IMG/VR virus record: IMGVR_UViG_3300024247_000011
Location: 1 to 31,643 of that record
Direction: 5' to 3' (one strand)
Length of the DNA: 31,643 nucleotides
Source: a virus
The translations under genes and the position numbers were made by a program. Within the stretch, counting starts at the first letter, position 1. Each line of letters starts with the position of its first letter. Shown piece by piece: positions 1 through 23,900 of the stretch. The notes beneath the pieces were generated by a model. It did not search any database. It had not been told where the DNA came from and saw nothing but the letters and a program-made list of their open reading frames with translations.

Positions 1-578
1 TGTAATGAATCAACATCAATGATAACAGCTCTATCTGCAACATCTACGATTCTTTTTACACTAATAAGACCAGTTCCTTGATATCCTTTATTTGTCTTAT
101 TAATACCTATAGTTTCTTCGCCTCTTTTCTTATCTGTTGCTAAACTCCTAGGACTAAGATATTTTCCTGACATTCTTTGGTGTTTAGGAAGATCTTTGTA
201 AGATAAACTTCTATCGATAAAGAATTTATTATTTTCATCAGCAACACACAGCACGTATTCATTTCCTGGGATAATTTGATCGCTTTTCGATGACTCGGGA
301 TCTGCGTATGGGTTAACCTTTTCGTTATCAGAAATGTAGAAAGTAATTGTGTTTTTACCTTTAGCGTCATACGCGTCCTTTGGTGTTGTTACAATTAAAT
401 CATCATCTTGTATTTTATCTAGTGCTATTTTAGTTTTACCATATACTGCTTTAGGCAACGTACTGTGTACACCACCTCCGTTGAATAAATCTCTAAGTAT
501 TTGTGAGCTAAATGCCTCGTTTAATTTCTGTGAAGCTACAAATGCTTCAAACAATTTTACGTGTTTCATTTTTGCCAT
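1..578 (-). CDS. Putative capsid-targeted protein, C-terminus cut by window edge
   Basis: This open frame runs off the window with no stop, so only about the first 192 residues are present. It starts at ATG 578 (MAKMKHVKLFEAF) or ATG 569 (MKHVKLFEAF); the second matches the starts of the next two genes exactly. Residues up to KLNEA resemble a T4 capsid-targeting sequence with a gp21-type cut at L-N-E|A. The rest is a diverged paralogue of the C-terminal part of the protein at 2083-3684. They share LFEAF/IYESF, (S/G)SQ, the VALDK(I/V)QD(D/E)DL block, FYISDNEK(V/E)NP, IGI.K..KG and the ADRA(V/I).DVD region. I do not recognise the enzymatic function, if any. A strong late-promoter-like motif lies 18 nt upstream of ATG 578. 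Existence of the gene is well supported; the packaged-cargo role is inferred. Confidence 0.8.
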   Translation of the reverse strand, partial: MAKMKHVKLFEAFVASQKLNEAFSSQILRDLFNGGGVHSTLPKAVYGKTKIALDKIQDDDLIVTTPKDAYDAKGKNTITFYISDNEKVNPYADPESSKSDQIIPGNEYVLCVADENNKFFIDRSLSYKDLPKHQRMSGKYLSPRSLATDKKRGEETIGINKTNKGYQGTGLISVKRIVDVADRAVIIDVDSL

Positions 579-596
579 TTTAATTGTTTTGTTTTT

Positions 597-606
597 ATTA
601 TATATC
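597..606 (-). promoter_or_regulatory. Late-promoter-like motif GATATATAAT
   Basis: Minus-strand GATATATAAT followed by AAAAAC, 18 nt upstream of the ATG at 578 and just after the stop codon of the gene at 614-1057. One of seven copies in the window, all in the same orientation upstream of gene starts. It resembles the T4 late promoter TATAAATA, and the spacing would give a leader of roughly a dozen nucleotides. Confidence 0.6.
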
Positions 607-613
607 TTTAAAA

Positions 614-1057
614 TCAATCTAATGATCCGTGCTTTCCTGATGACATTGCTTTTCCAAAATTATCACTACGTTCAGTTCTATATGAAATATATGCAGGATC
701 AGAGTTGTGGTTTTTACCACCTGCTCCATAATAAGACGATAACAAATACGTGTGTATTTTTTCATCTTGTTTACCAAATGATTTATCTGCGTCTTTGACT
801 AATTTAATTATTTTATTTATTTTAGAAGAATTAAATGGTCCATTGATTTCTGTTGATTCTGGATTAAAAGAACTAGTTCCAGTTTGAACTTTAATAGATT
901 GTAAAGTTTCAGGTATCCCTTTTATTAGTTTGATAAAATCTTTAAGGGAATCTGCACTACCTGACCATGAAGATTCTATCTTTTTACCATTAACCGTAGA
1001 ATATGAATATTCTATTTTCTCATTAATATATTGTTTAAATAACTTTACGTGCTTCAT
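614..1057 (-). CDS. Small putative capsid-targeted internal protein (147 aa)
   Basis: Unrecognised protein of 147 residues. It begins MKHVKLFKQYINEKIEYS, which has the T4 internal-protein targeting pattern, although the residue after the expected cut (I-N-E|K) is Lys rather than Ala, Ser or Gly. The rest is Ser/Lys/Gly-rich, with a predicted helical stretch around SLKDFIKLIKGIPETLQSIK and a basic, Gly-rich C-terminus (YYGAGGKNHNSD, SSGKHGSLD). No catalytic motif was seen. Its ATG follows the TAA of the upstream gene by one nucleotide (TAA-A-ATG), so the two are probably translationally coupled. The start is fixed by that junction and by homology of the first ten residues to both neighbours. 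Function is unknown; an injected or head-packaged protein is the best inference. Confidence 0.75.
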   Translation of the reverse strand: MKHVKLFKQYINEKIEYSYSTVNGKKIESSWSGSADSLKDFIKLIKGIPETLQSIKVQTGTSSFNPESTEINGPFNSSKINKIIKLVKDADKSFGKQDEKIHTYLLSSYYGAGGKNHNSDPAYISYRTERSDNFGKAMSSGKHGSLD

Positions 1058-1058
1058 T

Positions 1059-1715
1059 TTAGTGATTGTTCATTATATCTATTAAACTGTTAGCTGTTCC
1101 ATTATTAAAAGAATAGCTTGAGTTTGCTAATCCAATTGTACTATAATTAGTACCTGATGAATGATCAAACATAATTCCACCGTCTGATGAATTATATTCA
1201 TCTAATACAAACATTAATTCGTAAATTTCTTGAAACATTTTATCTTTAACCTTTGAGTCAATTCCACCGCCACATGTAACTGCGATTAAAAATGTTCTTC
1301 TACCTCCTGGATTAAAGTTTGCTCTTCCTTCAATTTTGCCGCCAACAGTAGATCTCATTGTACCTGACCATCCACCTGCTGCAGGAACTGAAGATTGTTC
1401 AATTTCATATTTCTTATATTTCTTAATTACTTTAGAAATAGCTTCTGCAAGTTTTACAGCATTTCTTCCTTGAAATATATCATAAGAATCTTTTGCAGTA
1501 TCACCTTGTACCATTAATGGTTCTTTATAACTTGGTAATTTGCCTGATTTTAAAATAGATTCAACGTCGTTTAAAACTCCGCTATATGAATCTCCCCATT
1601 TTTCTACTGCTATTTTGGCAAGTCTAAGTTTGTCTTCTAGTTTAACTTTAATTCCTTTTTTATTAAAAGAAATTGATTCATTTAAAAAAGATTCAAGTAA
1701 TTTAATATGTTTCAT
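1059..1715 (-). CDS. Putative capsid-targeted internal protein (218 aa)
   Basis: The first residues, MKHIKLLESFLNESIS, fit the capsid-targeting pattern with a clean L-N-E|S prohead-protease site after residue 13. The mature part has a charged helical segment (about residues 20-60), then a Gly/Ser-rich region with VPAAGGWSGTMRSTVGG and FNPGGRRTFLIAVTCGGG, which suggests a compact beta-rich fold. It ends in a Ser/Asn-rich tail. I recognise no family. The ATG is preceded by AAAAACATTTATAAAA, and the same 16-nt leader precedes the gene starting at 2063. This suggests the two units were duplicated together with their translation signal. Coupled to the downstream 147-residue gene by a 1-nt gap. Confidence 0.78.
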   Translation of the reverse strand: MKHIKLLESFLNESISFNKKGIKVKLEDKLRLAKIAVEKWGDSYSGVLNDVESILKSGKLPSYKEPLMVQGDTAKDSYDIFQGRNAVKLAEAISKVIKKYKKYEIEQSSVPAAGGWSGTMRSTVGGKIEGRANFNPGGRRTFLIAVTCGGGIDSKVKDKMFQEIYELMFVLDEYNSSDGGIMFDHSSGTNYSTIGLANSSYSFNNGTANSLIDIMNNH

Positions 1716-1745
1716 TTTTATAAATGTTTTTATTTTTAGTTAGAG

Positions 1746-2063
1746 TTATTTAGTCAGGATCCAGCCAATAGCCACATCACCAATAGTCTCTTCAATGTCT
1801 GCACTATTTTCCCAGAATTTTGGATCTGCTATACCATGGCGAGTACCTGATAAATACGTAATCACATATACTGGATATGAACCGTCTTTAACTAATTCCC
1901 ATTGATATTCTTTTTTATAGTCAAGATCTTCTAGTTCTTCACCGATTTCTTCAAAAGAATCTGCTTTCTTTACTACCTTCTTTAAGGCCTTGAGCATTTT
2001 CGTAGTTTCTACGATTGTAGAATACTCATTTACAAATGACTCAAATGTTGGTATGCGTTTCAT
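1746..2063 (-). CDS. Small putative capsid-targeted protein (105 aa)
   Basis: The open frame extends upstream to 2240, but that part overlaps the end of the preceding gene. The start at 2063 is preferred because it gives MKRIPTFESFVNEYSTIV, the targeting pattern of the neighbouring proteins, and is preceded by the same AAAAACATTTATAAAA leader as the gene starting at 1715. The product is 105 residues: a possible cut at V-N-E|Y, a Lys-rich helix (MLKALKKVVKKADSFEEIGEE uninterrupted by prolines) and a C-terminal part rich in beta-forming residues (YPVYVITYLSGTRHG, DVAIGWILTK). It has no recognised domain. It lies 19 nt after the stop of the 533-residue gene. Confidence 0.75.
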   Translation of the reverse strand: MKRIPTFESFVNEYSTIVETTKMLKALKKVVKKADSFEEIGEELEDLDYKKEYQWELVKDGSYPVYVITYLSGTRHGIADPKFWENSADIEETIGDVAIGWILTK

Positions 2064-2082
2064 TTTTATAAATGTTTTTTGA

Positions 2083-3684
2083 TTACCAAGCGTAATCGAA
2101 GGTTTTGATTTTATTAATTCTATCTTTGATATTCTTAGCGTAGTTTTTAGTTTCTCTTTCGTACCAACTCTCAGCTGAACCATATCTTTCTTTAGATTCT
2201 TCACCTTGTCTAACATAATCACAATATCTAGAATAGTCATCTAATATATTTGACATGTGATTAGAAGCATCTCTTAATTTAACAACAGATCCTCTTTTGT
2301 TTGTTCCGATCATGATTTCACCATATTTGGTTTTCTCACCTTTTTTTAATCCATTTTGAATTTGTGCAGTTAATTCGTCAATTGCATCCGAGACCATTTT
2401 ATCTAGTGGTAATTTAGCTGCGTTGTTCGCTAAAATAGTTTCGTATCTTTTCTTGTTTTCAGATTTAAAATCATCATGTGATTTAAATGCTGTAGCTCCT
2501 GATTTTGCAGCGTGTCTATCATTTCTTTTGTTTACAGTTGAATACTTTTGTTGTAATAAATCAACATTAATGACAATAGCTCTATCCGCAACTTCTGCAA
2601 TTCTCTTTACGTTATAAAGTCCAGTTGCATCCCATCCTTTGTATTTTTTACCAATACCTATTGAATCTGTTGGGTTATTATCTACTTGTTTAAGATTTCT
2701 ATCCCTGTTTTTTGAGCGGCCATATCTACTAGATGAAGACCAAACTTGATCATAGAATTTATTACCACCAGAAGTAACAGCTAATAAATAACCTCCACCT
2801 GGAATAACTTTATTGCCTTGATATGCATCATAAGGTGCATGTGGATTTTCTTTTTCATTGTCTGAAATATAGAAAATAATAGAATTTGATTGTTTTGCTT
2901 TATACGCGGTTTGTGGATCAGTAGTAATAAGATCTTCATCTTGTACTTTATCTAATGCTACTTTAGTAGAACCATAAAATGCGCTTGCTAAGTGTTTGTC
3001 TAATTTACCAGATTTTCCTCTAAATAGCTCAGCAAGTCTTTGTGAACCAAATGCTTCAGTAACTAATTCGTTAGATAATGAATTTACGAATTCACTAAAG
3101 CTTTCATAAATAAATATTGTTTTGTTTTTTGGTGTTTCCATTTTTATATTTGATGTATTTTCTTTTACTAATTTTGGATTTTTATTCAAAAGCTCTTCCA
3201 TGTCTATTTCAGTTAATGACATAAAACTATTTTCTCCATACTTTTTAGATAATTTATCTGCTTTTTTAATATCTATCACTCTAGTTAAATCATCGTAATC
3301 TAAAGTTGCTACTCCAAATTCTCCAAACATTTCTTCTGCCATTGCATTTGCAATTTTAAAAGGAGTTGCCTTTTCATTAAGTGTAACTTCTGTTGATGGA
3401 GTAATTGATTTTAAGATTCTCATACCTGTTTTAGAAAGAGAGATACCATCTTCGCTTACATTAAAATATGGTGTGTTTCTTCTTAACCATCTTGTAGAAT
3501 CAGTTGTCATTTCCTTAACAATACTTTTAAATTCTTCTTGGGAAATTTTACCATCTTTAATAGCTTCTAATACTTTATTTCTAATTTTAGCTGCTTTACC
3601 AACAGTTTTTGCAGGATGGTTTTCAGTATATTTTCTCTTAACTGTGATGTTTCTTTCTTCTAATGGTTCTTCGTTAATATCCAT
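2083..3684 (-). CDS. Two-part protein with internal capsid-targeting-like segment (533 aa)
   Basis: Residues 1-180 are a charged, mostly helical region of unknown family. Around residue 182 an in-frame ATG (position 3141) opens METPKNKTIFIYESFSEF, followed by a L-V-T-E|A-F-G-S-Q site. From there to about residue 400 the protein aligns with the paralogue at 1-578 (VALDKVQDEDL, FYISDNEKENP, ADRAIVINVDLLQQKY). The C-terminus continues with RNDRHAAKSGATAF, ENKKRYETILA and a basic, Tyr-rich helical tail. ATG 3141 is preceded by AAATATAAAA, much like neighbouring starts, so a 352-residue product from an internal start is possible. The full-length start at 3684 is supported by a late-promoter-like motif 21 nt upstream. 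No catalytic residues could be assigned. Confidence 0.78.
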   Translation of the reverse strand: MDINEEPLEERNITVKRKYTENHPAKTVGKAAKIRNKVLEAIKDGKISQEEFKSIVKEMTTDSTRWLRRNTPYFNVSEDGISLSKTGMRILKSITPSTEVTLNEKATPFKIANAMAEEMFGEFGVATLDYDDLTRVIDIKKADKLSKKYGENSFMSLTEIDMEELLNKNPKLVKENTSNIKMETPKNKTIFIYESFSEFVNSLSNELVTEAFGSQRLAELFRGKSGKLDKHLASAFYGSTKVALDKVQDEDLITTDPQTAYKAKQSNSIIFYISDNEKENPHAPYDAYQGNKVIPGGGYLLAVTSGGNKFYDQVWSSSSRYGRSKNRDRNLKQVDNNPTDSIGIGKKYKGWDATGLYNVKRIAEVADRAIVINVDLLQQKYSTVNKRNDRHAAKSGATAFKSHDDFKSENKKRYETILANNAAKLPLDKMVSDAIDELTAQIQNGLKKGEKTKYGEIMIGTNKRGSVVKLRDASNHMSNILDDYSRYCDYVRQGEESKERYGSAESWYERETKNYAKNIKDRINKIKTFDYAW

Positions 3685-3705
3685 GTGATAATATTATTGT
3701 TTTTT

Positions 3706-3716
3706 ATTATATATTC
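3706..3716 (-). promoter_or_regulatory. Late-promoter-like motif GAATATATAAT
   Basis: Minus-strand GAATATATAATAAAA, 21 nt upstream of the ATG at 3684. It is a one-base-longer variant of the window-wide GATATATAATA motif. The TAA stop codon of the upstream ligase/adenylyltransferase gene lies inside it. Confidence 0.55.
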
Positions 3717-5554
3717 TTGATAAATTGATCGAATGTTAATGTTGCTATTTCAGCCTCTTCTAAAACCCCCATAGAATCTTCCAGTTTAGATTTTAATTCA
3801 TTATACATATCATGTACTGGCTTAGGCGTTAGCTTCTTAAATAGCTTCTCATCGCCATCTAACATTGCGTTTCTTACTTGTGTTGCTGATATATTCTTAC
3901 CAGTTCTTGGTATTTCATAAAGTCCAAAATCAGTTCTAACACCAAGATCTTCTCTATATTCTGGTTTATCTACTTGAAATCCATAAGTTTTCATTCTATC
4001 GCTTCCGGTTCCCCATAATACTGGTTCATATTTTGGCCTCATTGCATTAAACATAGTGTCAATACCACCTGTTGGAATTACGAAAACTTCTTCAATTGGA
4101 TATTTAGATTTTAATCTATTGATCATTTCAACTTGAGTTTCCTCATCATAAGGTCTCTTAAATGCATCTTCTTTTTTCTTGTTCTTGGCTTTTACTAATA
4201 AGATTACAACCGGGTGGCCATTTTGCTTATGAATAGTTTCAACTACTTTAGCATGACCCAATGTAAAGGGCTGGAATCTACCAACAAACATATTTACTAA
4301 TTTCTTACCATGTTCTGGATAATCTACCTTTAACGCTTCTAAAACAGGAGATTCATTATATTGTAATTTTTGATTTAACAAATATGATTTAAAGTTAAGA
4401 ACATCATTTTCATTTGTTTTTGCCATTACTATTGCATCTATACTATCAACTATTTCATTGATCTGTGACATTAAATCTTTATTAATAATATCTGTTTCTT
4501 TGTTTCTCTTTTTTCTAAAACTACCTAAAGCTATTTTATACAATTCTGATAAAACTTTATTTTGTATTAATGATAGTGTTTTTTCATTTGTGATAAAGGC
4601 TGGGTTTAATTTAAAACCTTTGTTTTCTGAAAAATCTGCAGAATTAAAGCTAGCTCCTACATATTTAGAAGCATTCTTTTCAATGTATGCATTGAAGATG
4701 TGTGAAATTAATTCAATATATCTTTCTGCTGAATCTTCTGATTCTAAAGAAATTTCTTCAAGATTAAACTCTGTAATATACTCTACTAAATCTAATATAG
4801 CGATCTGATACATGTCAGATGGCTCTCTTTTTTGAATATCCTTTCTGTCAAATCTTTCAAGTTTAAAACTTTTTGGATTTTTACCTTCATAGAAGTTTAC
4901 TATTAAACCGTCTATGTCATTATCTAAATTAGAATTTAAAGTTGGATTATTAAGACCTATGTTGAATATATTAAATATGGCTCTTGTAAAAGATTGATCT
5001 TTGAATTTGATTTTAAAATCAGAATCAGAAAGTTCTAGTAATCTAATTAAGTCATCTTTTTGATTTGATTGTAAAACTCCTTGAAATATAACAGGTGGTT
5101 TTTGTACCCCTAATAATTCTGCCCACTTATTTAAGATCTGTGGATCTCTAATAACTTTTTTAATTTGTGTAGGGTTTTTAGGATTTAATATTTGTATGTG
5201 TGTTAGTATTAGATGGTTTTTAGGAAGACTTTCGTATTCGATATCTACTGTTTTGTTGTCTATCATGTAGTCAAATCCGAATTTCCAATCATGTGGCATA
5301 TCTTCTTTTACATCTTTAGGAATAGCCTTAAAGTAATTAATACCATTTTCATAGTATCTTACCATAGTTCTATCTACTTTATCCATTTTATGTTTAGAAC
5401 CGCTTTTAAAATATTCATAACCGGTACTAGTACTTTTAACATGAAACGAAGATGCTTGTATTTTTTCCGATACAACACATGTTAATTTCAACATTGAATT
5501 AAAGTCATTAATGTTAGTTGATTGAAAATATGTTCTTAAATTTTGTAATGCCAT
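3707..5554 (-). CDS. RNA-ligase-like / NMN adenylyltransferase-like fusion protein
   Basis: A 615-residue two-domain protein. Residues 1-240 look like an Rnl2-type RNA ligase adenylyltransferase domain: motif I EKIQASSF (30-37, compare EKIHGTNF in T4 Rnl2), a motif III-like DIEYESLPKNHLIL (104-117), motif IV DGLIVNF (215-221) and motif V FKLER (230-234). The usual motif I Gly is Ala34. Residues 240-400 are helical and unassigned. Residues 420-600 are a HIGH-superfamily nucleotidyltransferase: MFVGRFQPFTLGH (422-434) and ISATQVRNAM (555-564), typical of NMN adenylyltransferases making NAD from NMN and ATP. The last 12 residues (TLTFDQFIKNI) resemble the N-terminal targeting sequences of the neighbours. 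Coupled to the upstream ligase-like gene by a TAATG overlap. The NMNAT substrate is inferred; another nucleotidyl transfer is possible. Confidence 0.75.
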   Translation of the reverse strand: MALQNLRTYFQSTNINDFNSMLKLTCVVSEKIQASSFHVKSTSTGYEYFKSGSKHKMDKVDRTMVRYYENGINYFKAIPKDVKEDMPHDWKFGFDYMIDNKTVDIEYESLPKNHLILTHIQILNPKNPTQIKKVIRDPQILNKWAELLGVQKPPVIFQGVLQSNQKDDLIRLLELSDSDFKIKFKDQSFTRAIFNIFNIGLNNPTLNSNLDNDIDGLIVNFYEGKNPKSFKLERFDRKDIQKREPSDMYQIAILDLVEYITEFNLEEISLESEDSAERYIELISHIFNAYIEKNASKYVGASFNSADFSENKGFKLNPAFITNEKTLSLIQNKVLSELYKIALGSFRKKRNKETDIINKDLMSQINEIVDSIDAIVMAKTNENDVLNFKSYLLNQKLQYNESPVLEALKVDYPEHGKKLVNMFVGRFQPFTLGHAKVVETIHKQNGHPVVILLVKAKNKKKEDAFKRPYDEETQVEMINRLKSKYPIEEVFVIPTGGIDTMFNAMRPKYEPVLWGTGSDRMKTYGFQVDKPEYREDLGVRTDFGLYEIPRTGKNISATQVRNAMLDGDEKLFKKLTPKPVHDMYNELKSKLEDSMGVLEEAEIATLTFDQFIKNI

Positions 5555-6828
5555 TATCTTCCGTATTTTATGATACCCATTAATTGATTAATGGCTGCAA
5601 ACGTACCTGTTAATTTCATTGTTTTTCCTTTGTACACAAAAACTATTCCTTCAGTTGGTATAATAGATTCTATTCCTCCAATTCTATCTAATCTGGCAAG
5701 TTCAGCTTCTACTCTTGCAATTTGAGATTCACCTCCGGTTTTTTTAATAGCTTCAGCTTCTGTTCTTATTTGATTATGTAATCTTTGCATTTCCTTGTCT
5801 GGATTTGCTGCTACAAAATTAGAAGCATTTTTAAGAATTATAGATCCTAGTTCTAAGAATAAATCTTCAAACGGTCTAATGTTTTCTTTATATTTCTTTT
5901 TAACATCTTCTTTGTCAAATTTCTTAATAAGAGATGCTTTATCTTTACCTAACGATTTGTCTAAAGATCTCATGTTTAAAGTCTTCTTATCACCATAAGC
6001 CCATCTTAATAATAAACCTTCTTTATAATCTTGTTCTGTATCTGGAAAGTTTCTATCTATAGTTTCTCTCCACCACATTTCGTGATATCTTGAAACTGAA
6101 TCAGTATCTAATAAACCATAACGATCTCTTAGTGCTTCAATCTTTTTGATGAATTTAGATTGATTTTTTTCGAAATCAATATCTTTTCCTAATTTTAATA
6201 TTTGAGGGGGAATTATTGTAAATGTTTTTTGAACATCAGCATCAACTTCTTTTAATGCGGAAACCAGCTCTCCTGCTATTTTTTGCTCTCCAATAATATT
6301 TCCATTTCCATCAGTTTCCTTAATATCATGGAATTGTAAAACATCTCTTTCATAATAAATAACATTAGGATTCTTAGAGTAAATTAATTCCATATTAATA
6401 AAGTTCTTACCTTCATTAAATATAGACTGATCCTTCATCTTTGGAAGAGCTTCATTTAGGTCTTTAGCAGCAAACACGTATGTTTCTCTTACTAAGGGAA
6501 CTTCATGCTGTTCAAACATTTTTATAATACCGGCTAAATCGACTGGGCTAATTAATTGGCCTTTATTTCTAGAAAATAGAGTAACTCCGTTTCTTACGGT
6601 GGCAAATAAATTTTGGCCGTCTGTTTTTTCTGTTGCAACCTCTTCAAAGTTTAATTCTCCTTGAAGACCAGCTTCAACAATTTTTTTAAAGTCACCGAAT
6701 GTTAAATCTTTTTCATCAAATGGATGTGACATATGGCCCGCTGCTCCACCTTCTAAAATAAGGGACTCAGTTGTACTAGTACGTACACTCTCAGTTATAA
6801 ATTCATTGAAATTAGTAAAGATCTTCAT
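5554..6828 (-). CDS. RNA-ligase-like nucleotidyltransferase with capsid-targeting leader
   Basis: A 424-residue protein of the covalent nucleotidyltransferase (ligase/capping enzyme) superfamily. Visible motifs are motif I EKTDGQNLF (67-75) with K68 as candidate adenylated lysine, a motif III-like INMELIY (144-150), motif IV EGIVFVY (393-399) and motif V MKLTG (404-408). Before the catalytic domain sits MKIFTNFNEFITES, then TTES and LILEGG. These are possible prohead-protease cuts at I-T-E|S, T-T-E|S and I-L-E|G, so a mature enzyme starting near GGAAGHMSHPF is plausible. The segment MSHPFDEKDLTFGDFKKI marks the start of the conserved enzyme. It shares a TAATG junction with the downstream ligase/NMNAT gene. 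Whether it seals RNA, DNA or another substrate cannot be told from sequence. Confidence 0.75.
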   Translation of the reverse strand: MKIFTNFNEFITESVRTSTTESLILEGGAAGHMSHPFDEKDLTFGDFKKIVEAGLQGELNFEEVATEKTDGQNLFATVRNGVTLFSRNKGQLISPVDLAGIIKMFEQHEVPLVRETYVFAAKDLNEALPKMKDQSIFNEGKNFINMELIYSKNPNVIYYERDVLQFHDIKETDGNGNIIGEQKIAGELVSALKEVDADVQKTFTIIPPQILKLGKDIDFEKNQSKFIKKIEALRDRYGLLDTDSVSRYHEMWWRETIDRNFPDTEQDYKEGLLLRWAYGDKKTLNMRSLDKSLGKDKASLIKKFDKEDVKKKYKENIRPFEDLFLELGSIILKNASNFVAANPDKEMQRLHNQIRTEAEAIKKTGGESQIARVEAELARLDRIGGIESIIPTEGIVFVYKGKTMKLTGTFAAINQLMGIIKYGR

Positions 6829-6832
6829 AAGG

Positions 6833-6840
6833 TATTTATC
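6833..6840 (-). promoter_or_regulatory. Weak late-promoter-like site GATAAATA
   Basis: Minus-strand GATAAATA differs from the T4 late consensus TATAAATA only in its first base. It ends 4 nt before the ATG at 6828, so a transcript from it would have almost no leader. This makes promoter function uncertain. Confidence 0.3.
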
Positions 6841-6848
6841 TTATTTTA

Positions 6849-9146
6849 TTATTGTCCTAACGAGCTAGTTAGCATACCAACTGCAGTACCATAATCTCCA
6901 TCTGCTTTAGATAAAATACCGTCTATAACTTTTTTAGATTTAGCTTCGTCAAAATCTTCTCCAAATGCTTTTTGTAAAACAGTTACCGCATATTCTTCAA
7001 ATTCTTCATCTGAATTAACTTCAGCTTCAGTAACTACTGATTCTGCAACGTTGCTTTCCCACCATGATTCAAGTTTTTCAAATTCTGAAGTGCCCATATT
7101 AGATCTCATAAAATCTTCCACATCATCATAATCATCTTTTTCATCTTGATAATAACCAGGAGTATCGATATAATCTTTACCCATTATCTTTTTAATTTGA
7201 GCTTCTCCCATTCCATCAATTTCTATTAAGAATTTTTCGAAATCTGTTGTGTTTTTAAAGCCTTTAGCTTCAGTAACTACTGATTCATTATATAAGTGAA
7301 CATAGTTACTGTTTTTTTCAGAATAAATTGACTTGATTTCAAATTCTTTTTGTCCTTTGGTATAATATGCTTTAAAGAATAAATTTTCATCAAACTCTCC
7401 AAAGAAATGATCTGATTTGCCAATAAAGAATTCTGCGTTTGGATAAATTTCAAGAACCTCTTCTTGTGTAGTTGCTTTTAAAACAGCCTCGTCAAACTCT
7501 TTAACAAATTTAGCTTCAGTAACCTCTGATTCACTTAATGAATTTCTTAAACCACAATATTCACATTCTACAGTTCCGTCTTTGTCAATTTCTTTGTATG
7601 CATGTCCTTTTTTATTTGAACATTTTGGGTGTGATTCAGTAACTACTGATTCTTCAATATATTCTTCTAGACCAGCGTCGTCCCAACCATCTTCAGATGC
7701 TAAAACTGCTTGCAGATCTTCTCTTGAACCTGTCATTTCAACCTCTGGCCAACCACTTGGTCCACTAGGATCTAAAACTTTCATTTTAACGTTATGTTTC
7801 TTTAAAAGTTTTTTAAGTATCTTTGATTTAGGATCCATTGCATCCATTACTACAGTAGCTTCATTATAACTTACAATGTCAGAATATTTAATCTCATGTT
7901 CTTCTCCGTCTTGATCTAATCCAAAGATTGTTTTATCTCCCCACATATCATCATTGTTATCGTTGCCATTACCATATGCATAAATAACATACTCTTGTCC
8001 ATTTCCTAATTGAATCATGCCATCATCTGCTTTCATAGCTTTCATTAAAGACTTTTTATCATATGATTTCTCATTGATAGCATCTCCTTCGTCATACGCA
8101 AATGACTCAAACATGTTAAACGCATTTAATAAAGCTTGACCTGAAGCTTCTTCTTTAATACTCTCTAAATAAAGAGCAGTACCTTCAACAATTCCGATTC
8201 CTGACCAACCAGCTGCATTTGCAAGGTCACTATAATGTTTATCTAAAATTCTTTTTGTAGTAGTAGCACCTATTGTTAAAAAGTGATTACCTAAACCTGC
8301 TACTTTTAATTCAAATGAACCTATTCTACCTTTAATATTCTTAGATATAACTTTCTCTCTGTGGAAATTAGCATCTGTCATCGCTTCTTCAAAAAGATAC
8401 TTAATACAACCTAATGTACCTACTTTGTCCATTGCACCAAAATCTGTTAGTTTCTTAGTAAATAAATTTTTATAAACTGTTAAAACTTTTTTTGCGTCTC
8501 TTTTATATTGAACTGAAATAGCTTCATTTACTGAAGTAGTTAAAGATTCAAACGCTGGGTAAACATCATCATATCCTTTACCGTAAATGTCTGCCATTAA
8601 CCATTCTTTGTTGGCTTCATCCCATAAGTATACGAATTCAGCACCGCCGCCATCAGCAACATCCCTTAGATATTTAGATATATTAGCAACTTTACCCTTA
8701 GACGCTGTAAAGTTCCCGTAGAAATTAATCTTCTTAACATCTTTATCTAAACCCGAACTGTCTCCATTCTTAAGAATAAAATCTACATTTTTACCATCTT
8801 TAAAAGTTGAAGTTATAATAGGTAATATGTTTTCAGGATATGAATCATAATGCATATATACAGAAGTGATATTTCCTTTTTTATCGATTTTACCAATTTG
8901 TCCTCTAGTTCCTTCTTCAATTAAAACAGTTGCTTCGTTAATCTCAGCGCCTCTTAACTTAGTAAAAAATTCGATTCTTTGCTCTTCAGTTAATTCTTTG
9001 ATAGAAGTAACTTTAAATTCACCAAGTAAATTTTTATATGTTTCTGCTTCAGTACTTCTTTTAGTAGAGTTTTCTTCTTCTACTTGTCTAGATCTATTGA
9101 TTTGTGATTCAGTAGAAAACTGATCAAAAGATTTTAATTTATACAT
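6849..9146 (-). CDS. Putative capsid-packaged polyprotein with repeated protease sites
   Basis: A 765-residue acidic protein. It opens MYKLKSFDQFSTESQ, a capsid-targeting-like leader with an S-T-E|S site. A near-identical segment ESVVTE(A/S) occurs four times: cuts after E504, E544 (as SEVTEA), E626 and E707. Further matching sites are EINE|A (71), SVNE|A (208) and SYNE|A (429). Cutting at the four main sites would release a 40-residue zinc-ribbon-like peptide (C509, H515, C528, C531), two peptides of about 81 residues and a C-terminal one of 58. The N-terminal 500 residues contain unassigned globular regions, including a helical part around 210-350. No enzyme motif was recognised. A late-promoter-like motif lies 32 nt upstream of the ATG. 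The polyprotein reading is inference from T4 gp21 specificity. Confidence 0.75.
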   Translation of the reverse strand: MYKLKSFDQFSTESQINRSRQVEEENSTKRSTEAETYKNLLGEFKVTSIKELTEEQRIEFFTKLRGAEINEATVLIEEGTRGQIGKIDKKGNITSVYMHYDSYPENILPIITSTFKDGKNVDFILKNGDSSGLDKDVKKINFYGNFTASKGKVANISKYLRDVADGGGAEFVYLWDEANKEWLMADIYGKGYDDVYPAFESLTTSVNEAISVQYKRDAKKVLTVYKNLFTKKLTDFGAMDKVGTLGCIKYLFEEAMTDANFHREKVISKNIKGRIGSFELKVAGLGNHFLTIGATTTKRILDKHYSDLANAAGWSGIGIVEGTALYLESIKEEASGQALLNAFNMFESFAYDEGDAINEKSYDKKSLMKAMKADDGMIQLGNGQEYVIYAYGNGNDNNDDMWGDKTIFGLDQDGEEHEIKYSDIVSYNEATVVMDAMDPKSKILKKLLKKHNVKMKVLDPSGPSGWPEVEMTGSREDLQAVLASEDGWDDAGLEEYIEESVVTESHPKCSNKKGHAYKEIDKDGTVECEYCGLRNSLSESEVTEAKFVKEFDEAVLKATTQEEVLEIYPNAEFFIGKSDHFFGEFDENLFFKAYYTKGQKEFEIKSIYSEKNSNYVHLYNESVVTEAKGFKNTTDFEKFLIEIDGMGEAQIKKIMGKDYIDTPGYYQDEKDDYDDVEDFMRSNMGTSEFEKLESWWESNVAESVVTEAEVNSDEEFEEYAVTVLQKAFGEDFDEAKSKKVIDGILSKADGDYGTAVGMLTSSLGQ
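7024..7652 (-). repeat. Four dispersed 20-bp repeats encoding VTE(A/S) sites
   Basis: On the plus strand the sequence GCTTCAGTAACTACTGATTC recurs at 7024-7043, 7267-7286, 7513-7532 (one change) and 7633-7652 (two changes). All are in frame within the 765-residue protein and encode ESVVTEA or close variants. Spacings are about 243, 246 and 120 bp. Identity at DNA level suggests recent duplication or recombination between the units. Confidence 0.85.
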
Positions 9147-14399: not shown

Positions 14400-14768
14400 T
14401 TACAGTTTTTTACCTAGAGCTGCACCTAATGCGGCACCTACAAGTCTAGAAGTTAATAAATCGTAAAACACACCTTTTTGAATACCAAGAACTTTTGCTA
14501 GCATTTTACCAATAGATTTCCCTAAAGCAAAACCGGTAAGTCCACCAATAATTGATCCAAAGAAACCTTCATTAGTCATCTCTTCATTAAGTCTCTCAAT
14601 ATCATAAGAACCATCTTCATTTTGATATTCTGAAGCAAAAGATTCTAATGCTGCATCTATTTTCTCTTCTAACTCCGGAGTCCAAGTTTCTTGAAGACCT
14701 TCATTAATAAGTTCCAAATCCTGTTCGTTAACAGCGTTTTCAATTAAATATGTATTAAATGTTTTCAT
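14400..14768 (-). CDS. Small glycine-zipper protein with capsid-targeting-like leader
   Basis: A 122-residue protein in two parts. The N-terminal half is strongly acidic and begins MKTFNTYLIENAVNEQ, with several prohead-protease-like sites: V-N-E|Q, L-I-N-E|G (after 23) and M-T-N-E|G (after 67). The C-terminal 55 residues form two hydrophobic glycine-zipper stretches, GFFGSIIGGLTGFALGKSIG (68-87) and SRLVGAALGAALGKKL (107-122), typical of membrane-inserting or helix-packing segments. A cut after E67 would release a small, basic, membrane-active peptide. A packaged peptide helping DNA entry is one reading; a holin-like or membrane-associated assembly protein is another. The gene lies directly upstream of the RuvC-like gene. 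Confidence 0.7.
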   Translation of the reverse strand: MKTFNTYLIENAVNEQDLELINEGLQETWTPELEEKIDAALESFASEYQNEDGSYDIERLNEEMTNEGFFGSIIGGLTGFALGKSIGKMLAKVLGIQKGVFYDLLTSRLVGAALGAALGKKL

Positions 14769-18220: not shown

Positions 18221-19585
18221 TTATTGCATAAATTGTTTTTCGCGATCCTCTTCAAGATTCTCAACGTTGTGTACTATTATACCATTTGCAAAATAAACAT
18301 CAGCTTCTTCTACGTTAAAGGAATATGTTGTAAATCTCTCAGGTACCGCTATCAATTCTATAGATGTAATATCTACCCATTCATTGTCTTCATTTAAGAG
18401 CCAATCAGAATTAACAATATCTCTTACTTGTTTGAAGTAAATATCTCCTACAGTATCTTTTACTAGGACAGGATGTTCTTCTGTGATTTTTAATAATCCA
18501 TTATTGAAGTCATAATATTTATCGAATTCTAAAACAGTAACATTAGTAACAGTCGTGTTTGTATACACAGATCCAAGAGTTTCTTCTCTTCTTTTCCATG
18601 ATTTCCACTCTCCATCTAAACTAAATCCATCAAAATTAACAGATAATAAGTTATCTCCTACAACTACATCTTCTACTAATTTAGTTTCACCATTAGCTAA
18701 CGTAAGTAATTCTCCAGCTACGTGACATCCGCCTCCGCCGCCTCCGCCACTATACGATGGCGTTGAAGATGGAACTGGTGTTGCAGTTGGATTAGGAATT
18801 GGTGTTGCAGTTGGTCCCGAACCTGAACCAGAGCCTGAACTATTAGTTGGACTTGGCGTAGCTGTATTTTTAGGACCTGAATCTGCTTCAAGCGTACAAT
18901 ACCAAGTATCTGATGTGCCATATGGTGCACTTACTGTACAGTTAACATTCAGATCAGCAATTGGTGAAAAAGTTTTTGTAAACCTATAAGTTCCAGTAAA
19001 TACGTTCGAATTGTTTGTTACAGTTGGTCCAGTTTGATTTGAACCACTAACACCATTGGTACTAAAATTACTTGGCGCAGCTGGACTAGTGTTACCATCT
19101 GCTACGATTGTATATGATACATCAGTATTAAGACTACTAGGTGCAAATATAAATCTATTACCAGACGTTGTATTAGTTGCAAATGTAAACGTTGGGTTTG
19201 GACCAGGTGTTGGTTGAACAGTTGGAACTGGCGTTGCAGTTGGTGGAACTGGCGTTGCAGTTGGTGGAACTGGCGTTGGATTTGGTACGTTCGTCGGAGC
19301 TGGCGTTGCAGTCGGAACCGAAGTCGGAACTGGCGTTGCAGTTGGATCAGGCACACCTACACCCTCAGCTTGATTCACAGTTATAGTGTCAACCGTTGTT
19401 GAATTAGCATGTCTAACAGTAAGTGTCGCACTACGTGCATCACCTGTGTTTTCTTGAAGTGTAATTGTCCAGTCATCGGAGTTAACAGAAACTCTTGTTA
19501 TAGTAATCCAATTAGGAGTAGCATCCCATGAATAGGATGTACTTACCGGTGTAATTGAGACAGTTCTTGTATAATCGTAGCTCAT
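18221..19585 (-). CDS. BACON-domain fibre protein with C-terminal Hint (intein-like) domain
   Basis: A 454-residue modular protein. Residues 15-75 (SWDATPNWITITRVSVNSD ... ARSATLTVRHANST) match a BACON domain, thought to bind carbohydrate or mucin. A (PTATPVP)n proline-rich linker follows (80-130), then a beta-rich domain (130-235) and a Ser/Gly/Pro linker ending in seven glycines. C287 opens a Hint domain: CHVAGELLTLANGETKLVED, VVVGDNLLSV, ITEEHPVLV (block B, H371), and TYSFNVEEADVYFANGIIV (block F) ending in H439-N440. The residue after Asn440 is Val, not Cys, Ser or Thr, so full protein splicing is unlikely; cleavage or ligation is expected, leaving a 14-residue tail. Probably an adsorption protein that processes itself. 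A GATAAATATA promoter-like site lies 17 nt upstream. Confidence 0.85.
   Translation of the reverse strand: MSYDYTRTVSITPVSTSYSWDATPNWITITRVSVNSDDWTITLQENTGDARSATLTVRHANSTTVDTITVNQAEGVGVPDPTATPVPTSVPTATPAPTNVPNPTPVPPTATPVPPTATPVPTVQPTPGPNPTFTFATNTTSGNRFIFAPSSLNTDVSYTIVADGNTSPAAPSNFSTNGVSGSNQTGPTVTNNSNVFTGTYRFTKTFSPIADLNVNCTVSAPYGTSDTWYCTLEADSGPKNTATPSPTNSSGSGSGSGPTATPIPNPTATPVPSSTPSYSGGGGGGGCHVAGELLTLANGETKLVEDVVVGDNLLSVNFDGFSLDGEWKSWKRREETLGSVYTNTTVTNVTVLEFDKYYDFNNGLLKITEEHPVLVKDTVGDIYFKQVRDIVNSDWLLNEDNEWVDITSIELIAVPERFTTYSFNVEEADVYFANGIIVHNVENLEEDREKQFMQ
19224..19279 (-). repeat. 21-bp tandem repeat encoding PPTATPV units
   Basis: Two complete copies (19224-19244, 19245-19265) and one partial copy (19266-19279) of GGAACTGGCGTTGCAGTTGGT on the plus strand. 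They encode seven-residue Pro/Thr linker units in the BACON/Hint protein. Near-identical DNA occurs in the fibre genes at 19624-20964 and 20966-29041. Confidence 0.85.
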
Positions 19586-19623: not shown

Positions 19624-20964
19624 TTAATAACTATTAGTTCCCGAACCTGTTCCAGAGCTAGTTCCTCCGCTTCCAGTTCCCGAACTAGTTCCTCCTCCGC
19701 CTAAGCTTTCACCATCATCTTCGATAATTTCGTTATCACCACCTGAACCTGTTCCTGATCCTGTTCCTGAACCACCACCACTAGTTGGCGTTGCAGTTGG
19801 ATTTGGCCCTGATCCACTGCCTGATCCACTAGTTGGCGTTGCAGTTGGATTTGGCCCTGATCCACTGCCTGATCCACTAGTTGGCGTTGCAGTTGGATTT
19901 GGTCCCGAACCACTACCCGATCCACTAGTTGGGGCTGGGGTTGGTTGTGCCGTTGGATTTGGTGTTGCAGTCGGATTAGGCACACTTGAACTTGGTGACC
20001 CGTCACTATTTGCATTAATGTTTCCACCTCCAATAGAAATAGTGTCAGTTACTACTGGACTTCCATCAGCATATGCATCAATGTTTCCACCTATAATTCC
20101 AATACTATCTGCTACTCCGCTACCACAATCTGTACACAATTCTCTCCACTCTGGTGAACCACCGTTGTAATAATAAGCTTCAGCGATATCTAAATCACTA
20201 TTAAATCTTATCATACCTACTTGTGGATTTAATGGTCTTTGTCCAGTTCCACCATAAGGCAACCTTACGTAACCTTTAAATTCAGCATTTATATCTACAT
20301 CCAATATACCATTACCAGAAGTTTCTAAACTAAGGTTATTTGATCCAGTTGTTTTAATTGTTACGCCTTCACCTTGAAAATAAGCATTAGAACTTGTAGC
20401 AACTAAAGATATCTTATTAGTAGTTGCGCCGAACTCTATGTTACTGCTACCAAAATTATTTTTAAAAGCAAATCTTTTATAAGCTCCACTTTCTTCACTA
20501 GTTAATACTAAACCATGAACAGAGTCATGAAATAATTTTAGATAATTTGCAAAAACACCATCGGTTGCTATTGTTAATCTTGCATTTGTTGAAATATCAC
20601 CGTCATTAGAATCTTCTTCAAATGTAGAATCCCCTAACCAAATTATAGGAAGTTGTAAATCAGTTCCTCTTTTTGGTTTTAGAATAGTAACCTCATTTTG
20701 GCCATCTGAATTAGCATCTAATTCAACTTTATACCATGGACTATCAGTTGCCCCTGAATCTCCTTTTAAACCAGTATTACCAATCTCACCTTTTTCTCCT
20801 TTTTGTCCAGTAGAACCAACTTGACCTTGATCTCCTTTTTGTCCCTTGGGACCGACAGGTCCACCTCCATTTGCCAATATTTGGTCAAAGTTATAGTTGA
20901 TTTTTTCAAACTTAATAGAGTTCGAATCACTCGGGTGTAGTATCTCTTGAATGTTAATTGCCAT
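19624..20964 (-). CDS. Collagen-like tail fibre protein
   Basis: A 446-residue fibre protein. After the N-terminal INYNFDQILANGG come Gly-X-Y collagen-like triplets (about 34-71: GPVGPKGQKGDQGQVGSTG and onward), expected to form a trimeric stalk. Residues 75-280 are beta-rich. They include GGTGQRPLNPQVGMIRFNSD ... YYNGGSPEWREL, a segment common near the ends of phage fibres where structure repeats meet a tip or chaperone, and a CTDC pair. The C-terminal third is low complexity: three 16-residue repeats of TSGSGSGSGPNPTATP, then Gly/Ser/Thr-rich sequence ending GTGSGTNSY. A short adhesin or a fibre with a flexible, variable tip is likely. The ATG follows the end of the 2691-residue gene by 1 nt. 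Confidence 0.75.
   Translation of the reverse strand: MAINIQEILHPSDSNSIKFEKINYNFDQILANGGGPVGPKGQKGDQGQVGSTGQKGEKGEIGNTGLKGDSGATDSPWYKVELDANSDGQNEVTILKPKRGTDLQLPIIWLGDSTFEEDSNDGDISTNARLTIATDGVFANYLKLFHDSVHGLVLTSEESGAYKRFAFKNNFGSSNIEFGATTNKISLVATSSNAYFQGEGVTIKTTGSNNLSLETSGNGILDVDINAEFKGYVRLPYGGTGQRPLNPQVGMIRFNSDLDIAEAYYYNGGSPEWRELCTDCGSGVADSIGIIGGNIDAYADGSPVVTDTISIGGGNINANSDGSPSSSVPNPTATPNPTAQPTPAPTSGSGSGSGPNPTATPTSGSGSGSGPNPTATPTSGSGSGSGPNPTATPTSGGGSGTGSGTGSGGDNEIIEDDGESLGGGGTSSGTGSGGTSSGTGSGTNSY
19780..19930 (-). repeat. 48-bp tandem repeats encoding TSGSGSGSGPNPTATP
   Basis: Units begin at 19780, 19828 and 19876 with a partial fourth at 19924, each opening ACTAGTTGGCG on the plus strand. 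The first two are identical over their length by eye; the third differs at a few positions. The 48-bp period keeps the frame (16 residues per unit), so copy number can vary without breaking the fibre gene. Confidence 0.88.
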
Positions 20965-20965
20965 T

Positions 20966-23900
20966 TTATGACTTTATTTTTATCATAGGTTTAATGTCGT
21001 AAGAATATCCTAATCTTTTATTATATATCAATCTAAAATTCATAGGCTTTTGTTTATGAGATTTAAATCTAAAATTGTTGTCTGGTGTAAACCCACCAGC
21101 ACGAATATCTTCACCTATATTTATTATTGATGAAGGTCTTCCTTTAAAGTCTCTAGTATATAACGATATAGAATCTACTACAAATTTTTCAATAATATTA
21201 TTATTAATATAGAAATTTGCGTCATCGATCAAAGTTGTTTTATCCCCAGCTGAATCTTCAGCATTCACATACTTATTTATTACATCAAACACTCCGTCAT
21301 TTCTTAGTAATCTAGTAGCAGCATCAGTAATATAAAAATCTGCAACTATTTGTTTTTCATCCTCAAATACAGTTACTTCAGCCTTATTTATACCATTCTT
21401 TAAAATAAAATCTAAATCTTCTTGACTATCTACATTTTCATATGTAAAAGAAGTAACATCATACTCGTTTTTAATCTTCATCGTAGTAGATCCAAGATAA
21501 GATTTTTCCTCTGTATTATCTAATGTACCTGGTATATCTTCAGATTTTCCACCTGATAATGCTCTAGTATAATAATTTGCATCCCATGAAGATCTAAATA
21601 CGTTTACATCTTTTTTAGAAATAGCGATTTCATTAATACGAGGGTACAATGGTAATTTATCAGAAGATTCTGAGAGTTTGGTAATACCGTTTGGATTTAT
21701 TTCATTTACTTTATGATAAAAATGATTTTTTATAATGCCCCAATTAGAATCATGTATATCATTATCTATAATAAGACCTACATTGAACGTAGTACCACAT
21801 CTATTATATCTATTATAATATGATTTGGCAGTTTTTAATTCATATGAGTTATTCATGGCATGTTTGTATAAAAATGACTCAAATACAGACTCTCTGTTAT
21901 CTACAGTGGCTTGTACTCTATTAGATTTAAAATGAGCATACATGTCAGTAAATGTAACAACTGGTTTAAATCCTACAGTATATGATCCACTGTGTCTTAT
22001 TAAGAATGGATAATATTCAGCCTCACTTGATTTAATTAAATTATAACCAATAATACCTTTAAACAATTTAAAACTTTTCGGTTTATCATTATCTTCTTCT
22101 ACAGAAAGTGTTGCATATTTTACAATTTCATTTCCATCTTCAAAATTAATAGTAAATCTATTTGCATTTATTTCTCCATTTTCTTCTACCGTAGTATACT
22201 TAACACTATCATCATTTAAGTTTATCATTTCAGCAACACTGTTAATAGATAACTTTTCTAGAAGAGCTTTGTGTATGTTTGTACCTCCGTCCTTATAGTA
22301 ATACTTTATTTTACTTTGTAAATAGTTAGGTAAAAACTCAACATCTAAAACATCATATGGATCATTTACGTTTACAGGTTTCCCTTGTACTTTAATTGAA
22401 TTATCATCTTCTACTGTATAAATTGAAAACTTATAAATTGTATTTCCAGGTGTTTCAGGATATAAATCCATTAAAACCTCACCATATAATCCATTCTCTC
22501 CCAATAAAATTTGATCATCAAACTTAGGTATACTTCCATCAATATGTGTAATGCCATCTATTGTATATGGTAAATCCCCTGAAAAATCAGCTTGATTCCA
22601 ATTCAATGCACCGTCAAATGACGTATTAGCATAAATATAATCTTCATTAGTATGATCATATACTATTTTATGATTTAGTTCATATAACAATTTTCTATTC
22701 ATATTTCCTTTTACCCAATAATCACTAAGATTCATTGTGATAAAAAATATTACAAATTTAAACTTCTTATTTTGAATAACCTCAAACTCTATATCATTGG
22801 TTTCAGTATCTGTATTTGTCTTTAATAAAACACTAAATTTATAACCATTAAACTCACTACTTTTAACAAAATCAAGTGCAGTTTTATTGGCAAATTCCTT
22901 TCTATTTTTTAATACAACCTTTAAACCCTTAAATATAGTGTTAGCAAACGCATTTGTATCACCGCCATCTATCAATGTATACTTCTTCTTTAATTCTGTT
23001 TTAAAGAATGTATTATTAATATCATCAGGATTTAAGTAACCCTCTGTGTACTCTCCGAATTTTTGAAATATAGAATCGAGATCTTCTTTATTTAGATTTT
23101 TTTCAAATCCTTCAGAAATCATAAATTTATCAAAGTAATTGTTTTTAGTACTTTTAAATAAATCAGATGTTAATTCAAAATCTTCAATGAAGTTTACATA
23201 TGAAAATCCTTGGTTTAATTCATCATATCTTAAATACTTTGGATTTTTATCCATATAAAACCATTCATGTGTCATATCGTTTTTACTACGACCGACCGCA
23301 CTTAAATCAGGGGAGAAATTAGTTCTACCAAAGGCTTCATTAATATTCAAATAATATGGCTGTTCTTTAATATTTAATGAATCTTTTAAAACCCATTTGT
23401 TAATATTAGGAACTACTCTAGATTTAGTAGCAAATTCTTTTAACTCGTTTTCTTTTAGTCTATCAAATTCACTTGTAATATTTTCAGATAACTCTTCATC
23501 TATAGTTTCTTCAGATAATATTCCGGATAAATTAGAAAAATAATCAATCGGCTCTAATGCATAATTATCATCAAATATGTCACTCGCAGCTAATACTGAA
23601 TTAAACTCAGAAGTAATTGGATCTATGTTTAATATAGCATTTTCATATGGTTCGTAATTTATATTCTCTCTAGTTTCTAAAGATAACTCTTTTAGATCAG
23701 AATTTGAAGTGTCATAAAAATCAAAATCCATATCATATAAATTATATGCTGAGAATAAACCAACATGTACTATATTATTATTAAAAACTCTTGTTTCTCC
23801 ATCATTAATATCTGAATCTAAAGATAATATTATTTTAGATTTAGTAGAATCAATAGAATCAATATCTTCAACAATATCTAATACCTTATTGTAAATACCC

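Follow-up and report, generated by a model that had tools for sequence, protein, structure and literature searches.

The window analysed here is the whole of virus record IMGVR_UViG_3300024247_000011 (IMG/VR; 31,643 nucleotides), a 31.6-kb record that carries T4-like genes, nearly all of them on the minus strand. Genes for tail and fibres are followed by the gene of a 122-amino-acid leader protein, a RuvC-like gene, gp32, a gene read by us as primase-like, UvsW, and a cassette of genes sharing a short N-terminal leader. An initial annotation had proposed that this leader, placed at seven starts of the cassette, resembles the capsid-targeting sequences of the T4 internal proteins and marks packaged cargo. 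The leader, also called the tag, and the proteins that bear it (the cargo) are the subject of this analysis. The features concerned are listed below; an arrow (↓) follows the Glu that ends a leader or a junction, and "strict" refers to the stricter of the two leader patterns used in counting.

3..569, minus strand: leader protein truncated at the border of the window; leader MKHVKLFEAFVASQKLNE↓ at 516-569 (partial, next residue A)
614..1057, minus strand: leader protein of 147 amino acids; leader MKHVKLFKQYINE↓ at 1019-1057 (full, next residue K); strict leader in 5/5 orthologues from other loci
1059..1715, minus strand: leader protein of 218 amino acids; leader MKHIKLLESFLNE↓ at 1677-1715 (full, with L instead of F/Y at the first position, next residue S); strict leader in 8/8 family members including that of the window
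1746..2063, minus strand: leader protein, 105 amino acids from start 2063; leader MKRIPTFESFVNE↓ at 2025-2063 (full, next residue Y)
2083..3684, minus strand: two-domain cargo protein of 533 amino acids; internal leader-like junction IYESFSEFVNSLSNELVTE↓AF, ending at 3055
3707..5554, minus strand: 615-amino-acid protein with an Rnl2-like fold and an NMNAT/cytidylyltransferase-like domain; no N-terminal leader, C-terminal tag
5554..6828, minus strand: ligase-like (KTDG) protein of 424 amino acids; leader MKIFTNFNEFITE↓ at 6790-6828 (full, next residue S)
6849..9146, minus strand: polyprotein of small modules, 765 amino acids; N-terminal MYKLKSFDQFSTES at 9105-9146 (partial)
14400..14768, minus strand: glycine-zipper-like protein of 122 amino acids; leader MKTFNTYLIE, in the IPIII register, at 14739-14768; strict leader in 62/68 family members

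Each of the seven starts is an in-frame ATG on the minus strand, at the coordinates originally assigned. Four of them (1057, 1715, 2063 and 6828) open with the full leader [FYL]xx[FY]hxE (h, hydrophobic). The three others (9146, 578/569 and 3141) share only its FxxF half, and an S/L/V-x-E site is located at this half or downstream of it: the polyprotein has S at position -3 where L/I/V is expected, the start at 578/569 has LNE↓A eight residues after FxxF, as compared below to T4 IPI, and the ATG at 3141 lies inside the open reading frame (ORF) 2083-3684, at an internal junction of the leader kind (YESFSEFVN...ELVTE↓A). The shared leader is thus full at four starts and partial at three, and the initially proposed pattern, taken literally, fits only 1 of the 21 gene calls of the window and 0, 2, 2 and 3 in four relatives. 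The search for further leader genes that had been suggested was productive, yielding within the window the leader at 14768, as well as the C-terminal copy in 3707-5554, and at least 120 stretches in viral contigs.

The T4 internal proteins IPII and IPIII begin with MKTYQEFIAEA, IPI carries a split version (MKTFKEF, then ITE↓A further downstream), and gp23 has LTE at residues 63-65 (LTE65↓A). According to excerpts of two reports, the gp23 propeptide is 65 residues long (PMC5694885, PMC9026906); in excerpts of the second, gp21 cleaves after L/I-X-E, the Alt propeptide counts only 7 residues, and mutants of IPIII map targeting to residues 4 and 7 and processing to residues 8 and 10 (PMC9026906). 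The cleavage rule of the initial annotation agrees with this source, while its attribution of a MKTYQEFIAEA-type sequence to the internal proteins holds for IPII and IPIII but not for the split IPI and the short Alt propeptide. Both Alt and gp21 are also processed at their C-termini, and no C-terminal targeting sequence was encountered in the T4 literature consulted on processing (excerpts of PMC9026906). Aligned with the IPII/IPIII propeptide, as had been proposed, the window leaders fall in the same register, matching at residues 4, 7, 8 and 10, the four shown by mutation to matter; the leader of the 122-residue protein has in addition the same length as that of IPIII. Two aromatics three apart, a hydrophobic residue and a Glu in the IPIII register are found in the ligase-like protein and the small cargo proteins, and one leader stands before several proteins with unrelated mature parts. 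At the level of sequence, the putative system therefore has the characters of the T4 capsid-targeting system.

The frequency of the leader departs strongly from chance. In its relaxed form it occurs in 4/21 window genes, against a mean of 0.04 and a maximum of 1 in 200 shuffles, and in the contigs of four relatives in 9/299, 6/212, 8/172 and 7/203 genes, against shuffle means of 0.70, 0.46, 0.45 and 0.52. At internal Met residues it is found in 0/128 cases in the window and in 4/1151, 1/1002, 4/836 and 2/828 cases in the relatives. Family counts were made over 81 ligase loci (the window and the best 80 of 232 relatives; 1446 ORFs), with families clustered without their first 25 residues. Because the loose pattern also matches core families (up to 24/74), only the strict one is used in the argument. 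It is found in none of the 507 members of the seven families taken as core (UvsW 0/75, primase-like 0/76, a 140-residue protein 0/76, a 73-residue protein 0/71, gp32 0/74, RuvC 0/69, a 183-residue protein 0/66), and in 62/68, 55/81, 17/17, 8/8, 8/8, 7/7, 6/6 and 5/5 members of cargo families. When the start codon is left open, [FY]xx[FY][ILVM]xE directly precedes the conserved core in 81/81 ligases, in one group of which it forms a junction within a longer protein. With families merged by any similarity, the leader marks 24/86 sense clusters and 0/40 antisense clusters, the consensus being MKH(V/I)KLFEQF(I/L/V)NE↓. Probable chance matches were kept in the counts, namely MRLDTGVDYLTLFLE (G001, 190415) and two of the 24 leader clusters (MRMESQIKPYLVYF, MKLLNYRLLMEQ).

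A census with a 39-base degenerate pattern for the leader gave the viral stretches mentioned above; the same codons in scrambled order gave none in viral contigs, and the leader pattern gave none in the bacterial and archaeal genome collection. Among the matches listed (80 loci), 113/116 open an ORF of at least 50 amino acids, an in-frame start lies over 20 codons upstream in 3 cases, and the encoded proteins form 70 clusters, 48 of them singletons, without detectable similarity outside the leader (E 1e-4). That the leader stands on otherwise unrelated proteins, as initially claimed, is borne out by these 70 families but not by every pair: a common domain links 3-617 and 2083-3684 (41% identity, E 6e-44), the second part of the latter being homologous both to 3-617 and to a protein of relative G007 with its own full leader.

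A change of cargo is also visible in the DNA. The window and the sibling contig L004, whose ligase is 91% identical to that of the window, share 96% DNA identity (384/401 bases) as far as the codon for the Glu of MKHVKLFEAFVASQKLNE, beyond which they are unrelated, so that L004 carries the leader of the window protein 3..569 on an unrelated protein. Of 264 homology breaks over the leader genes compared, 62 fall at -3 to +6 nucleotides relative to the Glu codon; the next 24 nucleotides hold 6, the following 60 hold 2, and 112 are upstream and 82 far downstream. Identical patterns were collapsed, the pairs are non-independent, and the pattern used to search for leaders has the Glu as its last position. 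As leader and cargo are separable, cargo genes would be exchanged between phages at the leader boundary.

Profile searches identified a gp21-type S77 protease in L004 (the one positive among 5 records), in 15/18 longer relatives and, over the family cut-off, in 17/20 records, these last chosen by us among the larger records of the leader census. In G001, G002 and G007, successive genes encode the portal, a small acidic protein, the S77 protease-acidic fusion, the major capsid protein and a core-like protein. The protease is the N-terminal part of a protein of 686-820 amino acids (G001 147160-149622, G002 132108-134168, G007 111307-113367) with a long acidic scaffold-like region, so that protease and scaffold are apparently joined in one polypeptide. 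Three records of 234-236 kb (G027, G028, G029) harbor a second, shorter S77 match in a 132-residue open frame, possibly a protease paralogue.

The leader is also found on parts of the prohead. The acidic core protein has a full leader in G007, and so does the core-like protein encoded after the capsid gene, which in G001 and G002 begins with an aromatic stretch (YEEF and FEQW, respectively). All three capsid proteins display INE↓S or INE↓A close to the N-terminus. The head core protein stands alone behind a full leader in L172, L175 and L202 (three identical sequences). In L214, leader, cargo domain and head core protein form a single polypeptide with LSE↓A at the join, and the cargo domain of this fusion is found behind the leader in L166, L181 and L185. 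In L090, the core protein is preceded by a different cargo domain within one polypeptide.

The 615-residue protein bears the tag at its opposite end: LEE↓AEIATLTFDQFIKNI, the final 15 residues being encoded at 3710-3754. Such a C-terminal copy (e.g. MTFDQFIKNI) ends 63/73 cytidylyltransferase orthologues against 16/1372 other proteins, 8 of these 16 belonging to one further family with ends like LLLFEQFIDK. The linker before the tag is of variable length and often includes an L/V-x-E↓S-like site, and T607 and F608 are invariant in 27 sequences. In the structural model (predicted local distance difference test, pLDDT, 75), Foldseek matches the first half to T4 Rnl2 (E 2e-7, probability 1.0, template modelling (TM) score by target 0.39, and 0.51 for RNA ligase 1s68). 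Motif I reads EKIQASSF in the window and EKIHGTNF in T4 Rnl2. This half was at first considered a member of Rnl2 and was downgraded to Rnl2-like upon inspection of this motif: the K-x-x-G of Rnl2 is not found, as the Lys is invariant and the Gly is replaced by Ala in 24/27 sequences, which makes ligase activity uncertain. In the homologue of LR756500, the Lys is absent from the motif I position, as judged by eye. The second half displays the signatures of HIGH-superfamily nucleotidyltransferases (GRFQPFTLGH and ISATxVR, invariant in 27 sequences), scores 38.3 bits with PF01467 (cut-off 21) and matches the structure of NMNAT 4yp6.

The polyprotein has 59 orthologues, reduced to 23 non-redundant ones before junctions were counted, and consists of small modules in varying order, most of them without known function. 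Across the 23 sequences, 106 copies of the strict junction [LIVM][STN]E↓[AS] are counted, against 8.1 (standard deviation, sd, 2.9) in shuffled ones; in the window protein, such sites follow residues 71, 208, 504, 539, 544, 626 and 707. Control proteins show none (UvsW 0 against 4.5 shuffled, primase-like protein 0 against 1.3), while ssb (6 against 2.3) and the cytidylyltransferase (19 against 4.9) also exceed the shuffled value, the excess of the latter being largely its C-terminal site, by eye. Of 985 ends of transposed similarities, 20% are no more than 3 residues away from a junction, where random placement gives 6%. FxxF is found in the first 50 residues of 58/59 polyproteins (core background 71/188), and the first strict junction at residues 71-99 in 57/59. 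The initial list of cargo, which named a ligase-like enzyme and a polyprotein, is correct as to the presence of both, but the polyprotein carries the targeting half and not the full leader.

In the 424-residue protein, K68-T-D-G71, E147 and E393-G394 are invariant in 28 sequences, as is the leader Glu in the 28 aligned ligases. Its AlphaFold2 model is mediocre (pLDDT 68). The top ten Foldseek rows are ligases, but weak (E 0.03 or worse), and with VIA ligases occupy 20 of the first 21 rows (Z of at most 6.3, residues ~68-210, rated middling by the tool); the best structural rows, also weak, are RNA and DNA ligases. Pfam, PHROGs and NCBIfam returned no credible family for this protein or for the submitted small leader proteins of the window, and a profile search of solved-structure sequences returned nothing credible for it. 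In Mel-JY01, the cytidylyltransferase and a ligase of this type form a single protein, which suggests that the two act jointly.

Other leader proteins resemble enzymes as well. Among ATP-grasp leader proteins, 3 of the 5 first tested exceed the cut-off of an ATP-grasp-type Pfam family and a fourth that of TTL, with one more identified later. A PolyA_pol/CCA-type enzyme has a variant leader (2.4e-32) and a PGA_cap protein a partial one (4.5e-40); further leader proteins match CTP_transf_like or, below curated cut-offs, GNAT and 2H/Acb1-like families. To note, a leader protein at 3747-4292 of L151 matches anti-CBASS Acb1 and 2H phosphoesterases below cut-off and is a possible pre-loaded anti-CBASS protein. 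The glycine-zipper-like protein of the window, present in 68/81 loci with a Pfam match slightly below cut-off, is a candidate packaged membrane-active protein. Given the enzyme-like cargo (ligase-like, nucleotidyltransferase and others), a role of the predicted enzymes in RNA repair and counter-defence is plausible. As to the pair of ligase-like protein and cytidylyltransferase, its most likely job, proposed here speculatively, would be the sealing of RNA (tRNA) cleaved by nucleases of the host defence at an early stage of infection.

Taken together, a large group of uncultured T4-related phages carries, as far as sequence comparison tells, one short tag on dozens of otherwise unrelated proteins. 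This tag very probably serves to load proteins into the virus head and to deliver them to the bacterium with the DNA. That the leader is a capsid-targeting propeptide working like that of the T4 internal proteins, with its cargo packaged and delivered along with the DNA, is a reading we hold with good confidence. The FxxF face would dock freshly synthesised protein onto the prohead core, which itself consists partly of tagged protein; the gp21-type protease would then cut after (L/I/V)-x-E and free the cargo within the head, where it would be packaged with the DNA to enter the next host upon infection. The tag would also be usable from the C-terminus, and a single tag may carry a string of modules that the protease would separate.

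Several observations weigh against this propeptide reading. The residue following the leader Glu is frequently K, R or E. Only 30/67 members of the 2083-3684 family have the strict leader, and the N-terminal T4-type signal is incomplete in the polyprotein family (strict leader 0/59) and in the cytidylyltransferase family (0/74, with the C-terminal copy instead). Codon agreement within the leader is 0.73, against 0.62 predicted from codon usage, so that part of the likeness reflects DNA copying or a bias of the start region. Homology breaks at the leader end are expected for any constant leader before a changed cargo. In G001 (MKVIKTIEAFAKE) and G002 (MKHLKTFKNYSNLTE), the leader of the acidic core protein is no more than partial. 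The protease, whose gene had been expected in the genome and is indeed present in L004 and most of the relatives, has no profile match in the window, as a 31.6-kb fragment allows, and was not found in L027, L002 and L026, the searched contigs whose ligase is 100% identical, which end at most ~5 kb past it. It is missed in 3/18, 4/5 and 3/20 records: G004 lacks a match because its contig ends inside the portal gene, and further misses are G016, G035, G040 and G041. Since every T4-like phage should have an S77 protease, finding one does not discriminate. In Mel-JY01, of which ~178 of 190 kb were read, leaders are not in excess (9/230 against 4.3 after shuffling, with a maximum of 9), and the fused enzyme lacks one; LR756500 (a 25-kb part) has 4/29 against 1.1 shuffled (maximum 4), with a cytidylyltransferase devoid of the C-terminal tag, and LR756508 has 0/21. 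A virion proteome or mature N-terminus was searched for any relative and none was found, the phage collection consisting of distant relatives. Confidence in the propeptide reading is lowered slightly because the protease is unseen in contigs of the window species and because the motif I check weakened the enzyme reading.

The strongest alternative, which we regard as unlikely, holds that the tagged proteins are parts of the prohead core or scaffold which are degraded by the protease and leave as fragments, like T4 gp22, gp67 and gp68, none of them being a delivered effector. The tag borne by the acidic core protein and by the product of the gene that follows the capsid gene would fit such a role, as would the richness of the polyprotein in cut sites and the recurrence of the EGNAF module of the G002 protease-scaffold fusion in the polyproteins of L059 and L062. 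Yet several tagged proteins are enzyme-like (ligase-like, cytidylyltransferase, ATP-grasp, PolyA_pol/CCA type, PGA_cap), and cargo content differs from phage to phage, contrary to what an essential scaffold would show. Moreover, 23 ligases hold 6 strict sites against 3.4 (sd 1.8) in shuffled sequences, and are therefore not strings of cut sites.

Far less probable is a leader that remains uncleaved and acts as another localisation or partner-binding signal, directed to a membrane, a replication site or a host protein. A short aromatic peptide could bind other partners, and cleavage is predicted here from the motif; but the register is identical to that of T4 at the four mapped residues, the Glu is invariant in the ligases, cargo changes at the Glu codon, and the same leader stands on the prohead core protein. 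A recent DNA duplication, or a DNA-level element of translation or recombination without protein function, is hardly credible: the similar codons and the aid that homology of flank and leader could give to recombination speak for it, but ligase leaders vary at most positions while keeping [FY]xx[FY]hxE in 81/81, and copies at C-termini (63/73) and internal junctions make no sense for a start-site element.

With the capsid-targeting propeptide as the preferred reading, what is new is the C-terminal copy of the putative tag, the predicted polyprotein of shuffled modules with V-[T/N]-E↓A-like joins, and two ligase-like enzymes as predicted cargo. A broader proposal, to which we give even chances, is that of open-ended loading: one short tag, at either protein end or before a polyprotein, would load a rapidly exchanged arsenal, dozens strong, into T4-type heads, including an RNA-sealing set that would act on host defences before phage gene expression. 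This set (ligase-like enzymes, nucleotidyltransferases, CCA-type polymerase, 2H-like phosphoesterase) is assembled from across the clade. A T4 system of four known proteins would become what looks like a widespread delivery platform, and the tag alone would predict virion cargo among function-unknown proteins of uncultured phages. It could offer a direct route to the proteins of host takeover and counter-defence in the first minute, a long-standing gap, and yields testable short signals, one of them C-terminal, for loading proteins into phage heads.

Concerning the host, we infer a member of the Bacteroidota from the leader-gene starts (A at -3 in 91 of 116, a Shine-Dalgarno-like match in only 6), from a BACON domain in a fibre-like protein, and from the closest portal matches among named phages, those of Sphingomonas, Prevotella and Tenacibaculum. 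This fibre-like protein (18221-19585) also contains a PT-rich linker, and its C-terminal region is Hint/intein-like (PF14890, below cut-off). Nearby, 20966-29041 encodes a 2691-residue protein with bacterial Ig-like domains, and the adjoining 19624-20964 harbors collagen-like and SGSGSGPNPTATPT repeats in the GC-richest kilobase of the window (0.448). With tblastn, neither the polyprotein nor the acidic core protein was found in any phage record. No report of such leaders in uncultured phages was found in a literature search mostly outside subscription journals and without preprints, and 'capsid targeting sequence' and 'metagenom' never occur together in one paper of the set covered, most subscription journals and all preprints lying outside it.

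Compared with known systems, the closest likeness is to the T4 internal proteins IPI-III and Alt: leader register and residues, the (L/I)-x-E cut motif and a variable cargo behind a constant leader are shared, and an S77 protease, gp21 in T4, occurs in this clade. Whereas T4 has four such proteins, this clade has at least dozens of cargo families, with ligase-like and other enzymes, C-terminal tags and polyprotein strings; its protease is fused to a scaffold-like acidic region, and its phages are uncultured and probably infect Bacteroidota. The head proteins of SPN3US and phiKZ have common propeptides cut after a short Glu-ending motif, some at multiple sites (excerpts of PMC5694885 and PMC10052503). 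In those excerpts, head and ejection proteins have propeptides cut by an S77 protease, as is predicted for the present cargo, but many of their propeptides exceed 100 residues and the SPN3US motif is A-x-E, against ~13 residues and L/I/V-x-E in this clade. Polyvalent proteins are described, in excerpts of Iyer et al. 2017 (PMC5512222), as multi-domain proteins, thought to enter along with the DNA and to be proteolytically split. The multi-domain phage polypeptide is common to both, its modular architecture being seen in this clade and its delivery predicted; as far as these excerpts go, processing of polyvalent proteins is thought to rely mainly on zincin-like metallopeptidase domains, while the modules found here are very small, shuffled and separated by prohead-protease-type sites. 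Finally, the two halves of the 3707-5554 protein match the folds of T4 RNA ligase 2, with a similar motif I, and of NMNAT, but here the two folds are fused, the motif I Gly is mostly Ala, and a putative head tag closes the C-terminus.

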